Shown one piece after another: positions 1,450 to 5,224 of a stretch of 5,224 bases of DNA; position 1 is the stretch's first letter, and every line of letters begins with the position of its first letter. The translations under genes were made by a program, and so were the position numbers. The DNA comes from a bacterium (GTDB lineage: Bacteria > CSSED10-310 > JAJRTK01), in the NCBI GenBank assembly GCA_024278345.1, contig JAJRTK010000141.1, forward strand, positions 1-5,224, written 5' to 3'. The notes beneath the pieces are model-generated. The model was given only the letters and a program-made list of their open reading frames with translations. It made no database searches and was not told where the DNA came from.

Positions 1450-2637
1450 ATGAACTGGTGGAAAAAAAAGATGGCAGGCCGCCAGACCCCACTTGAGCCG
1501 AATCCCTCCACCGCCCTCCCGCCGGCTTTCAGGGAATCGGGGAGCCCTGTCTCGAAGGTGGAGGAAAAAGCTGAGAACCTCCTGAAAAAAGCTATCTCTC
1601 TTTGGAGAAACGGCCACGGTGCGAAAGCCATCCACTGCCTGCGCCCCCTGGCCAAAGAAGCCCACTCTTCCACCGGCCGCCAGGCCTGCTTACTCCTGTC
1701 GGAAATCTTCCTTGACTCCGGAGAAGAAGATCTTGCCCGGGACTTTGCCGAGATCGTCCTCACGGAGCAAATCGAATCTCCGGGAGCCTGGGCCGTGCTG
1801 CAAAAAACTCGCCGCGCCCCCATGCTCACCGTCGAAGAGGAGGCTCTTCCGGGAGATCGATTCACCCTTCTCCGGCTTCTTGGCCAAGGAGGTGGCGGCC
1901 ATGTCTATCTGGCCAACGACCGACTGCACGGAGCACCTGTGGCCCTCAAACGGCTCCATTTCTCCGAGGACGGAAAAAGCCTAAAAACTAGATTGCGAGG
2001 CTCCCTCCTGGTCTCCTCGATCCCTTCTCACCCTTGTTTGCTTCCCATTCTTGACGTCGATCCAGCCTTGGGTATTACGACCCATCCCTATATCCAGGGT
2101 AGTGATCTCCGCTCACTTTTGGGCTCACCCCTCTCCTTGGCTCGATGGCGGAAGAATATGTTGGCGCTGGTGCGAGGGCTGTCCCATCTTCACCACCACG
2201 GAATCCTCCATCTGGATATCAAGCCGTCGAACGTCCTTCTGTCGAACTCGGGGGATATTTTTCTCACCGACTATTCTCTGGCCTGTGACGCTCCCCCCTG
2301 GCCCGCCCTGGGGACTCCGGACTACGCTGCGCCGGAAATGCTCCTTGGCCTGACACCCTCCCCTGCCTCCGACATCTATTCCCTTGGAATCATCGCGTAC
2401 GAGCTCGCCGCGGGCAGGCGGCCCTTCCCGGCCGGCACGCCGGTCCGGCCTTCGGCCTTTCCCCCCATGAAAGACGACTTCGAGAGATTTCCAGCCGAGT
2501 ACTGTTCGCTGACTCACGAATCTCTGAAGCTCGATCCCGCCGCACGCCCGACGTGCGCGGATTGGCTGAGGATTCTACAGAAACGGGTGTCCAGAGGGCA
2601 ATTGCCTTCTGGTGAAGCTCAGGAGCAGAGCTCCTGA
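1450..2637 (+). CDS. TPR-like/Hanks-type Ser/Thr protein kinase, atypical catalytic motifs
   Basis: A 395-residue protein with a variable N-terminus, a helical repeat region at about 35-125 (AKAIHCLRPLAKEA and DLARDFAEIVL resemble TPR helices) and a Hanks-type kinase domain at about 134-385. Intact features are the glycine loop G145xG147xxG150xV152, the ATP-anchoring lysine K167 in VALK, catalytic-loop D256, K258 and N261, metal-binding D274, GTPDYAAPE (288-296) and D308 of subdomain IX. Altered features are HRD reading HLD (254-256), DFG reading DYS (274-276), and Gly/Ser at 184-185 where the helix-C glutamate is expected. The stretch from DYS to APE is about 23 residues and has no Ser or Thr between the DYS motif and T289. 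There is no transmembrane or extracellular sensor segment, so the protein is probably cytosolic. It could be an active atypical kinase or an ATP-binding scaffold. An AAGG at 1435-1438 is 11 bases from this ATG, which is long, so the start is uncertain and the in-frame ATG at 1471 is an alternative. Confidence 0.87.
   Translation: MNWWKKKMAGRQTPLEPNPSTALPPAFRESGSPVSKVEEKAENLLKKAISLWRNGHGAKAIHCLRPLAKEAHSSTGRQACLLLSEIFLDSGEEDLARDFAEIVLTEQIESPGAWAVLQKTRRAPMLTVEEEALPGDRFTLLRLLGQGGGGHVYLANDRLHGAPVALKRLHFSEDGKSLKTRLRGSLLVSSIPSHPCLLPILDVDPALGITTHPYIQGSDLRSLLGSPLSLARWRKNMLALVRGLSHLHHHGILHLDIKPSNVLLSNSGDIFLTDYSLACDAPPWPALGTPDYAAPEMLLGLTPSPASDIYSLGIIAYELAAGRRPFPAGTPVRPSAFPPMKDDFERFPAEYCSLTHESLKLDPAARPTCADWLRILQKRVSRGQLPSGEAQEQSS
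2619..2637 (+). promoter_or_regulatory. Perfect 8-bp hairpin across the kinase stop codon
   Basis: TCAGGAGC (2619-2626) pairs perfectly with GCTCCTGA (2630-2637) across a 3-base loop, AGA. The right arm contains the kinase TGA. No T-run follows, so it does not look like an intrinsic terminator. The left arm holds AGGAG, the only good Shine-Dalgarno core near the ATG at 2637, so the fold would hide it. It could also stabilise the 3' end of a processed FHA-kinase transcript. Confidence 0.45.
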
Positions 2638-2813: not shown

Positions 2814-3593
2814 ATGGGTGAAAAGAAACACAAGATTTTGGTCGCCGATGACGACATCCTGATTTTGAGGATGATGGCCAGCCAGCTCGAGGTAGAGAAT
2901 TACTCGGTCTTCTTGGCATCGGACGGCGTGGAAGCGCTGGAAATGGCAAGGAGTTACAAGCCCGATCTCGTGCTTCTGGATGTCATGATGCCCAGGATGG
3001 ACGGCTGGACCGTTCTCAAGCAACTTCGGAGCACTCCAGGCTGCGAAGCACTCCCCGTGATCTTCCTCACGGCCAAGAACTCGGCCCAAGATCGAGTGCA
3101 AGGCCTGGAGCTTGGGGCCGCCGATTACATCGCGAAGCCGTTCAGCCCGGAAGAGCTCATGCTCCGCATCGAAAGGGCCCTTGGGTCCGTGGCAAGGGAA
3201 CAGGGCAAACCTGGCGCAGGCGCCAACTCTTCTCCTCAGTCCAAAGCAGCACTCCATGGGCTGCTCCGGCACATTTCCCTCTCGGCCCTCTTGTCTCTCA
3301 TCGACTCCGAGCAACTTGGCGGCATTCTCACCTTGAGCAACAGCGCGTACCAGATGTCGGGGCAGATCGTGTTTCGTGCCGGCCAGGCCCTGGCTTCCCG
3401 AATCGAAGGGTTCAAGCGTGTCCGAAACGAAGACGCCATCTACATGATGATGGGCTGGAAACAGGGCACCTTCGACTTCAAGGTGGGCAGAGTCAAGCTG
3501 GAAGCCCAGATCCAGACCCCTCTCACTCAAATCCTTCTGGAGGGTGCCCGGCTCATGGAAAAGGACCGGCGGCTCTCAAGTCCGAACTTCTGA
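2814..3593 (+). CDS. Response regulator: REC receiver plus PatA-type DUF4388 domain
   Basis: A 259-residue cytoplasmic regulator. Residues 6-125 are a complete receiver domain: acidic pocket D12-D14, phospho-acceptor D56 in LLDVMMPRMDGW, switch residue T86 in FLTAK, and K108 in the AKPF motif. It should therefore accept phosphate from a histidine kinase, and none is encoded here. After a Gly/Ser/Ala linker (about 128-146), residues 147-250 match the DUF4388/PatA N-terminal family, with the usual layout of LHGLLRHISLSALLSLI, then GGILTL, then GQIVFRAGQALAS, and an ending like WKQGTFDFKVG. This output domain is found in regulators of motility, pili and gene expression, but its biochemical action is poorly defined and it is not a DNA-binding helix-turn-helix. 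The start is set by ATG 2814 with AGGA 5 bases upstream and REC beginning at once. An ATG at 2637 overlapping the kinase stop would add 59 featureless residues. Confidence 0.92.
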   Translation: MGEKKHKILVADDDILILRMMASQLEVENYSVFLASDGVEALEMARSYKPDLVLLDVMMPRMDGWTVLKQLRSTPGCEALPVIFLTAKNSAQDRVQGLELGAADYIAKPFSPEELMLRIERALGSVAREQGKPGAGANSSPQSKAALHGLLRHISLSALLSLIDSEQLGGILTLSNSAYQMSGQIVFRAGQALASRIEGFKRVRNEDAIYMMMGWKQGTFDFKVGRVKLEAQIQTPLTQILLEGARLMEKDRRLSSPNF

Positions 3594-3650: not shown

Positions 3651-3804
3651 GGGACCTATCAAATCCCCGCGTTTTTGCTTTACACTCTGCGGCGCCGCCC
3701 TGGTGGCACCGGCATCTTGCCGGTGGCGGGCTGGACGGGATTCACGGAATTGAACGGTGGGTTCCTTGCGTGCGTGGACTTGTCAACCGGATCTGATAGG
3801 TCCC
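3651..3804. repeat. MITE-like element bounded by 16-base inverted repeats
   Basis: GGGACCTATCAAATCC (3651-3666) and GGATCTGATAGGTCCC (3789-3804) are inverted copies matching at 15 of 16 positions and enclosing 122 bases. CGTCTT occurs at 3643-3648, two bases before the left arm, and again at 3805-3810, directly after the right arm. This could be a target duplication or chance. The interior holds the GTGILPV hairpin at 3707-3725 and no credible gene. It sits between two convergent genes, a usual place for dispersed repeats. Only one copy is in the window, so its repeated nature is inferred. Confidence 0.5.
3707..3725. repeat. GTGILPV-type palindromic repeat core
   Basis: CACCGGC (3707-3713) and GCCGGTG (3719-3725) form a perfect 7-bp stem with a 5-base loop, ATCTT. 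Read on the + strand, the surrounding bases translate as GTGILPV. On the - strand they read GKMPVPP. From memory, both peptides recur in spurious ORFs of Verrucomicrobiota and related genomes, where this palindrome is a high-copy intergenic repeat. Confidence 0.5.
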
Positions 3805-3848: not shown

Positions 3849-4736
3849 TCAAAAGCCTCGGTTGAGCAACCCCCCGCTAATATCGAGGAACGAGAGCAGG
3901 AAAGCCCCAAAAATCAAAAGAAAAACGGAAGGCAAGATGAAGAGCATGATGGGAATCAGCACCTTCGTGGCCGCCTGAGCACCCGCTTTCTCCGCTCTTT
4001 GAAACCGCTCCGTCCGCATCTTGTCCGCCTGGGCCCGGAGAACGGCCCCGATGGATGCTCCCAATTGATCCGCCTGGATCAGGACAGCGGCAAAAGACTT
4101 GATATCGGCGATATCGACACGCCTGGCCAAGGCACGAAGAGCCTCGGCTCGGGTTTTTCCCATCTTGATCTCTTGCAGCATCAAGTGGAATTCATCCCGA
4201 AGCGCGCTTGGATCGGCTCTCTGGACGACGCGCCGGAGCGCGATTTGAAAATCGAGACCCGCCTCTACCGACAGGGTGAGCAGATCGATGAAATAGGGCA
4301 ACTCTCTCAGGATTTCCTTTTTCCTGCGCTCCACGATCCCCGAAAGCCAGAACCTTGGATAAAAGGAAGCAATGGCCGCCGCAACAATTGCCACCAAGAT
4401 GGAATAGACTTGGAGGATGAAGGGCAAGATTGCCGCGTAACAGGGCAAAACCATTCGAAAAGCGATAAATTCGTCGGCACTGATCTCCATCTGGAGACCC
4501 GCCGTTATGAGCTTGTTCTTCGTCTTTTCTCTGTACTGGGCAATGGGCAGCCGTGCAATGAACGGAACGAGTTGCCGCACAAAGGGCACCGCCAAGCGAA
4601 AGAGAAAAAGCCCCGGCACGCGGCGACGTTCCCCCGGGTTAAGGGCAAGCCGCATCTGCCGCTCTTCATCGGTTTCGAAGAACTGCATCGCGAACAGTGC
4701 CGTGGCGATTAAAATGCATAGATAGATTAAGATCAT
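3849..4736 (-). CDS. tadC: Type II secretion F-domain protein, TadC-like inner-membrane platform
   Basis: A 295-residue integral membrane protein of the GspF/TadC family, which forms the inner-membrane platform on which the secretion ATPase assembles a Tad (Flp) type IV pilus-like fibre. It has an N-terminal membrane helix (residues 1-20), a charged cytoplasmic stretch with RxKxKNKLITAG (about 69-80), a hydrophobic region of one or two helices (about 95-127), a T2SSF cytoplasmic bundle (about 145-265) and a C-terminal membrane helix (about 266-289). The ELPYFIDLLTLSVEAGLDF segment (145-163) is typical of TadC rather than TadB. Length fits the family. GGAAGAGAG lies 7 bases before the ATG. No tadB, tadA/cpaF or pilin gene is adjacent, although tadB and tadC are normally neighbours and both are needed. 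It is convergent with the response regulator and has its own promoter. A TadB assignment is the main alternative. Confidence 0.85.
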   Translation of the reverse strand: MILIYLCILIATALFAMQFFETDEERQMRLALNPGERRRVPGLFLFRLAVPFVRQLVPFIARLPIAQYREKTKNKLITAGLQMEISADEFIAFRMVLPCYAAILPFILQVYSILVAIVAAAIASFYPRFWLSGIVERRKKEILRELPYFIDLLTLSVEAGLDFQIALRRVVQRADPSALRDEFHLMLQEIKMGKTRAEALRALARRVDIADIKSFAAVLIQADQLGASIGAVLRAQADKMRTERFQRAEKAGAQAATKVLIPIMLFILPSVFLLIFGAFLLSFLDISGGLLNRGF

Positions 4737-4902: not shown

Positions 4903-5094
4903 ATGAAAACAAAACAAGATCCGGCTAACCGTTTCTCCAAGAGACTTTTTCTAGATCTTAGCTCCAACGCCTTGACTCGAGCCGTGGCGGAGCTGACAGT
5001 TTCAAAGGCTGCTTTCCTCGACCTGACACTTTCCAACCCCACCCGCGCACGCTTGGATCCGCCGGGTATCCACGCAAGGCGGGACAAAGATTAG
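4903..5094 (+). pseudogene. Truncated N-terminus of a PLP-dependent aminotransferase
   Basis: Only 63 codons remain before a TAG. Residues 9-52 (RFSKRLFLDLSSNALTRAV, then FLDLTLSNPTRA) match the start of class I/II pyridoxal-phosphate aminotransferases, in which an FSxR..D segment is followed by a DLTxSNPT motif that opens the substrate pocket. Family members run to about 400 residues, so the PLP-binding lysine and nearly all of the fold are missing. Similarity fades at about residue 53-56 (LDPPGI) and the tail HARRDKD looks unrelated. No Shine-Dalgarno sequence or promoter is evident upstream. The cause could be insertion of the sequence that follows, a deletion, or a frameshift, and the +1 frame is open to the window edge. 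The original protein probably acted on an amino acid, but its substrate cannot be told. Confidence 0.6.
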
Positions 5095-5224
5095 AAACAA
5101 AAGGAAAACGCGCAGCGCACAAAAATGTGGGCTGGGATCCCGTTGCCCTTTGTTGCAACGGGAAGTTGAGCGAGCTCCCTGGTGGGTGCAGGGCGAAGTC
5201 CTGCCAGGGGACGGGGGACAGCGT
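5095..5224. other. Non-coding, strongly folded sequence at the window edge
   Basis: No credible gene is seen. TCCCGTTGC (5138-5146) pairs perfectly with GCAACGGGA (5155-5163), a 9-bp stem with an 8-base loop. A second two-part hairpin follows: CCCTG (5177-5181) with CAGGG (5205-5209) outside, and GCAGG (5188-5192) with CCTGC (5200-5204) inside, closing over a GCGAAGT loop. A G-rich run (ACGGGGGACAGCGT) then leaves the window. This density of stems suggests a structured RNA, such as the 5' domain of a group II intron, or the end of a transposable element. I cannot assign a class. Confidence 0.35.

Follow-up and report, generated by a model that had tools for sequence, protein, structure and literature searches.

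A divergent Hanks-type kinase lacking the helix-C glutamate, encoded next to a TPR-FHA protein in a bacterium of the CSSED10-310 lineage

Gene content of the locus

The window analyzed here is one whole contig (C61) of 5224 bases from a 6.06-Mb genome that consists of 550 contigs and is 87.9% complete. It carries three genes on the plus strand and one convergent to them (open reading frame list and Pfam). The first plus-strand gene (156–1424) encodes a 422-aa protein with a TPR-like region and an FHA domain; its start codon is uncertain and may be the TTG at 156 or an in-frame ATG at 207 or 216. The FHA domain (897–1088, Pfam) retains the phosphothreonine-binding motifs GR, SxxH, and NG, as read from the sequence. 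Its closest solved relatives by sequence are the FHA chains 5a8i (deposited as ArnA) and 8s05, both weak matches (E 3e-5 to 4e-5). The second gene (1450–2637) starts 25 bp after the end of the FHA gene on the same strand and encodes a 395-aa protein that combines a TPR-like region with a Hanks-type kinase domain. It is followed, after 176 bases if 2814 (the best start) is correct, by a gene for a response regulator receiver protein with a DUF4388 domain (2814–3593, plus strand, Pfam).

The fourth gene (3849–4736, minus strand) encodes a T2SSF/TadC-like membrane protein. It has no recognizable tad neighbor on this contig, and because it lies on the opposite strand, we rejected an operon with the FHA, kinase, and receiver genes. 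Two stretches of the window belong to dispersed repeats: an intergenic repeat at 3690–3800, with about 40 more copies in the same genome that are nearly all 97–99% identical, and a second family at 5064–5224, with roughly 40 copies of 83–99% identity. The contig terminates inside the latter, which probably explains the assembly break there. An Rfam scan of the whole window gave no match.

The genome contains about 100 kinase matches and at least 34 FHA matches. Among the FHA and kinase matches listed, the pair in the window is the only one in which the two lie within 2 kb of each other. Together with the short distance, the shared strand, and the intact FHA gene, this supports a dedicated kinase–FHA pair, as the original prediction of an FHA reader had proposed; the support is thin, consisting of adjacency at one locus in one genome. 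A 9.2-Mb relative from the same phylum (G003) appears to be unusually rich in Ser/Thr signaling; it yielded 287 kinase candidates on a first look, along with 55 FHA matches.

Kinase domain and its altered motifs

The kinase domain was identified as Pkinase (PF00069; 115 bits against a cut-off of 31.7; residues 139–373), and its limits were placed at residues 136–373 (1855–2568) from Pfam, AlphaFold2, and the structural match to PknB. An AlphaFold2 model of residues 120–395, built from 37 kinase sequences, reached a pLDDT of 87.2 and a pTM of 0.86, so that an intact canonical kinase fold is predicted with confidence, although the model is ligand-free and the alignment of canonical kinases biases it toward the canonical state. 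The top structural match is PknB (5u94; Z 29.3, rmsd 2.0 over 245 residues), effectively tied with phosphorylase kinase gamma, CaMKII, and DAPK, and PknA is the closest in sequence (phmmer, E 3.4e-25). PknB and PknA carry HRD and DFG motifs, a helix-C Glu, and a longer loop with activating Thr residues, whereas the window kinase has HLD, DYS, Ser185, and a short loop; these features of PknB and PknA are well established and are borne out by the PknA alignment.

Upstream of the kinase domain lies a helical, TPR-like region (residues 36–122; 1555–1815). It is suggested by a weak TPR_16 match below the Pfam cut-off (residues 45–106, E 0.0033) and by five N-terminal helices in an AlphaFold2 model of the full protein, with pLDDT of about 65–79 for most of the region. 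This second model, built from 8 sequences, is poor overall (pLDDT 54.8) and was used for the N-terminal helices only. On the C-terminal side, no Pfam match, and hence no TPR, was found past residue 373, where just 22 residues remain. The protein also gave no PASTA and no rubredoxin match.

HMM alignment confirmed that the nucleotide-binding and catalytic residues are kept: the glycine loop GQGGGG (residues 145–150; 1882–1899), the beta3 Lys167 (1948–1950), Asp256, Lys258, Asn261, and Asp274, as well as Thr289 (2314–2316) and Glu296 of the APE motif. The changes proposed earlier in the neighboring motifs are equally present. HRD is replaced by HLD (residues 254–256; 2209–2217), which makes the catalytic loop non-RD, and DFG by DYS (residues 274–276; 2269–2277); these assignments, like those of Lys167 and Thr289, were checked at the codon level. 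To describe these motifs as several eroded catalytic motifs was, however, an overstatement, since both keep their catalytic Asp and both have precedents in active kinases.

The activation segment, DYSLACDAPPWPALGTPDYAAPE (2269–2337, HMM alignment), comprises 23 residues when counted inclusively from Asp274 to Glu296. This is the length given in the original prediction for the distance between DYS and APE, but the interval between the two motifs is only 17 residues. Similarly, the claimed absence of Ser and Thr before Thr289 holds for the residues that follow DYS, but not for DYS itself, of which Ser276 is a part. Thr289 is not a spare phosphosite but the Thr that is conserved in the P+1 loop as part of the GTPxYxAPE motif.

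The position of the helix-C Glu, first given as Gly or Ser, is now settled as Ser185 (2002–2004, codon-checked). A phmmer alignment with PknA, the HMM alignment, and the AlphaFold2 models, in which Ser185 lies inside helix C (residues 176–189), all agree on this site. A search for a Glu that could be placed in the helix instead found no Glu or Asp anywhere in residues 175–201. The fragmented source (550 contigs, 87.9% complete) leaves room for the idea that an ordinary, active RD-type kinase has been misread through an assembly sequence error. This is very improbable: the Ser185 codon, TCC, is three base changes away from GAA or GAG, Ser276 would need two changes, and both alternative frames contain stops just upstream of helix C and offer no properly placed Glu. 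With these frames closed, a compensated frameshift around helix C was rejected as well. As read from the sequence, the helix-C Glu is thus truly absent from the window kinase.

Comparison with the genome's own kinases and with relatives elsewhere

The kinases of the genome were aligned by iterated HMM, which yielded 79 rows with the helix-C column and 79 rows with the C-lobe; as some proteins are split over several rows, these counts refer to rows and not exactly to genes. The helix-C Glu is present in 76 of 79 rows. The exceptions are the window kinase, L044, which has Gly in this column and a Glu two residues further on, and L070, which has Arg and has also lost the catalytic Asp. The window kinase is therefore one of 2/79 rows that keep the Lys and both Asp residues but lose the Glu. 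An apparent loss in L023 and L025, with Pro in the column, looks like an alignment shift, as a Glu stands one residue earlier and the length differs by one residue. In the C-lobe, the HRD Arg is found in 64 rows and absent from 15, DFG Phe is kept in 74/79, and DFG Gly in 77/79. DYS and a loop free of Ser and Thr each occur in the window kinase only, and its activation segment is the shortest of the 79, the commonest lengths being 29 and 33. Judged against the genome's own kinases, the combined oddities of this protein thus appear to be more than chance.

Two further divergent proteins emerged from the same alignment. L070 (G000:C321:21900-23700) is kinase-like, has HQA in place of HRD, carries Arg where helix C normally has its Glu, and represents a candidate for a true pseudokinase. 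A kinase on contig C116 (L061; L104:4941-5819) has HYD, DLA in place of DFG, a 24-residue activation segment, and APV in place of APE, and keeps the helix-C Glu. Common ancestry of this protein with the window kinase is not supported, because the tree places it elsewhere; both are long-branched.

No orthologue of the window kinase was found in 8 genomes of the same phylum, in 386 genomes sampled across the domain, or in a further 44 genomes. Searches with six short peptide patterns likewise found none in a viral contig collection and none in a genome contig collection, where the hits were generic kinases with at most 39% identity. Across all searches, the nearest relatives were generic kinases with 26–39% identity and normal motifs, none of them an orthologue. 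The triad DYG occurs in the acidobacterial kinases L021, L022, and L024 and in the genome's own paralogue L040, so that Tyr is commonly found in place of Phe, and the Ser of DYS alone is special.

The tree gives the window kinase an end branch of 1.37, compared with a median of 0.57, and places it with no relative at good support. Such a long branch is compatible with relaxed constraint, and the protein may be a kinase that is decaying, with no special function behind its changes. The lack of an orthologue among the 386 sampled genomes, a large paralogue family that makes redundancy likely, and the presence of a second odd kinase in the genome (C116: HYD/DLA, 24-aa segment) would fit this explanation. 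We nevertheless consider it quite unlikely, as the frame of 395 codons is intact with normal codon-position G+C, the changes cluster in the regulatory machinery and spare the residues that catalysis requires, and AlphaFold2 predicts an intact fold.

Known systems and a possible mode of action

Pseudokinases are defined by loss of the beta3 Lys, the HRD Asp, or the DFG Asp (PMC12599244). The window kinase keeps all three (Lys167, Asp256, and Asp274), and with them Lys258, Asn261, and the P+1 Thr, which favors an active kinase. As aligned, every residue that touches ATP, metal, or the transferred phosphate is in place, and what has been lost belongs to the switch, namely the Arg for reading the loop phosphate, the phosphosites, and the Glu indicative of the active helix-C position. 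The original prediction had left the choice between a constitutively active enzyme and an ATP-binding pseudokinase scaffold; the retained residues favor the former, and the protein is probably not a dead enzyme but a kinase that is either always on or controlled by a partner.

The main rival is that the protein binds nucleotide without phosphotransfer and serves as an FHA platform that is switched through phosphorylation by another kinase. It draws on the combined loss of the Lys–Glu bridge, the DFG Gly, and the HRD Arg and on the shortened loop, and the phosphate could be supplied from among the genome's roughly 100 kinase matches. There is also a precedent in MviN, a bacterial pseudokinase whose tail recruits the FHA protein FhaA after phosphorylation by PknB (PMC12599244). 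MviN thus pairs a kinase fold with an FHA partner, as proposed for the window proteins, but it is a membrane protein without any catalytic motif. Given the residues retained in the window kinase, we regard this scaffold role as a serious but somewhat unlikely alternative.

For an active enzyme, the closest parallel is PknG, which acts with OdhI or GarA in Actinobacteria and is the only non-RD kinase of the M. ulcerans set (PMC4238996). PknG has TPRs, an unphosphorylated open loop, and a helix-C Glu that crystal structures show swung away from the Lys, and it recruits its FHA substrate via N-terminal autophosphorylation sites (PMC8546545). The window kinase shares the non-RD loop (HLD), a TPR-like region, and a candidate FHA partner, and the joint loss of the HRD Arg and of Ser and Thr from the loop fits a kinase that, like PknG, needs no loop phosphorylation. 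Furthermore, the Lys–Glu bridge is unformed in the PknG crystal structures, although PknG keeps the Glu that the window kinase lacks. The two also differ in architecture: in PknG the TPRs are C-terminal, a rubredoxin domain is mostly present, and the FHA partner is a small OdhI-type protein, whereas the window kinase has N-terminal TPR-like helices, no rubredoxin match, and a 422-aa TPR-FHA neighbor. Because its TPR-like helices precede the kinase domain instead of following it, the protein falls outside the PknG family, and the likeness is one of working mode.

The altered motifs have individual precedents. DYS is the triad of the hyperactive LRRK2 variant G2019S, whose effect was attributed in simulations to a Ser–Glu bond (PMC8201809). 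LRRK2, which is unrelated in architecture, shows that the triad can be active, but it retains the helix-C Glu that is believed to mediate the effect of Ser2019. As this Glu is missing from the window kinase, the same mechanism cannot operate there, and the precedent is one of tolerance and not of mechanism. The DYD bacterial kinases and POMK, like the window kinase, lack the helix-C Glu and have an altered DFG. However, DYD kinases carry Arg in beta3 and a second, compensating Asp, in place of which the window kinase has Lys167 and a DYS triad without a compensating acid, and POMK lacks the beta3 Lys that is kept here.

Taken together, these comparisons lead us to infer, with a probability of about one half, that the protein is a divergent but catalytically competent non-RD kinase that is independent of loop phosphorylation or activated by a partner and is paired with the adjacent TPR-FHA protein. 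The absent Glu, the long branch, the failure to find an orthologue in the genomes searched, adjacency seen in one contig, and a ligand-free fold model guided by canonical kinases count against this reading. Under the proposed mechanism, loop phosphorylation would be dispensed with, the HRD Arg and the Ser and Thr of the loop having been replaced by a short Pro-rich segment. The kinase would autophosphorylate outside the loop, possibly at Thr13 or Thr21 in the low-confidence, probably disordered N-terminus, and/or phosphorylate the neighboring FHA protein. The FHA domain would bind the resulting phosphothreonine, and the TPR-like regions of both proteins may scaffold the pair. Without the Lys–Glu bridge, basal activity would probably be low, and the TPR region or the partner may order helix C. 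The more specific proposal that ordering of the N-lobe, by the N-terminal TPR region or by binding of the FHA protein, replaces both the Lys–Glu bridge and loop phosphorylation in a working kinase that has lost the helix-C Glu, the HRD Arg, and the loop phosphosites is doubtful.

The substitutions are real and unusual in an otherwise ordinary type of protein, and there is so far no evidence for a new mechanism; as a single orphan sequence, the protein carries limited weight. If active, it would show in a natural protein how far the kinase switch can be stripped down and would join PknG as a second non-RD kinase that forms a unit with TPRs and an FHA protein. It would also be a native DYS kinase without the Glu on which the effect of LRRK2 G2019S is thought to rest.
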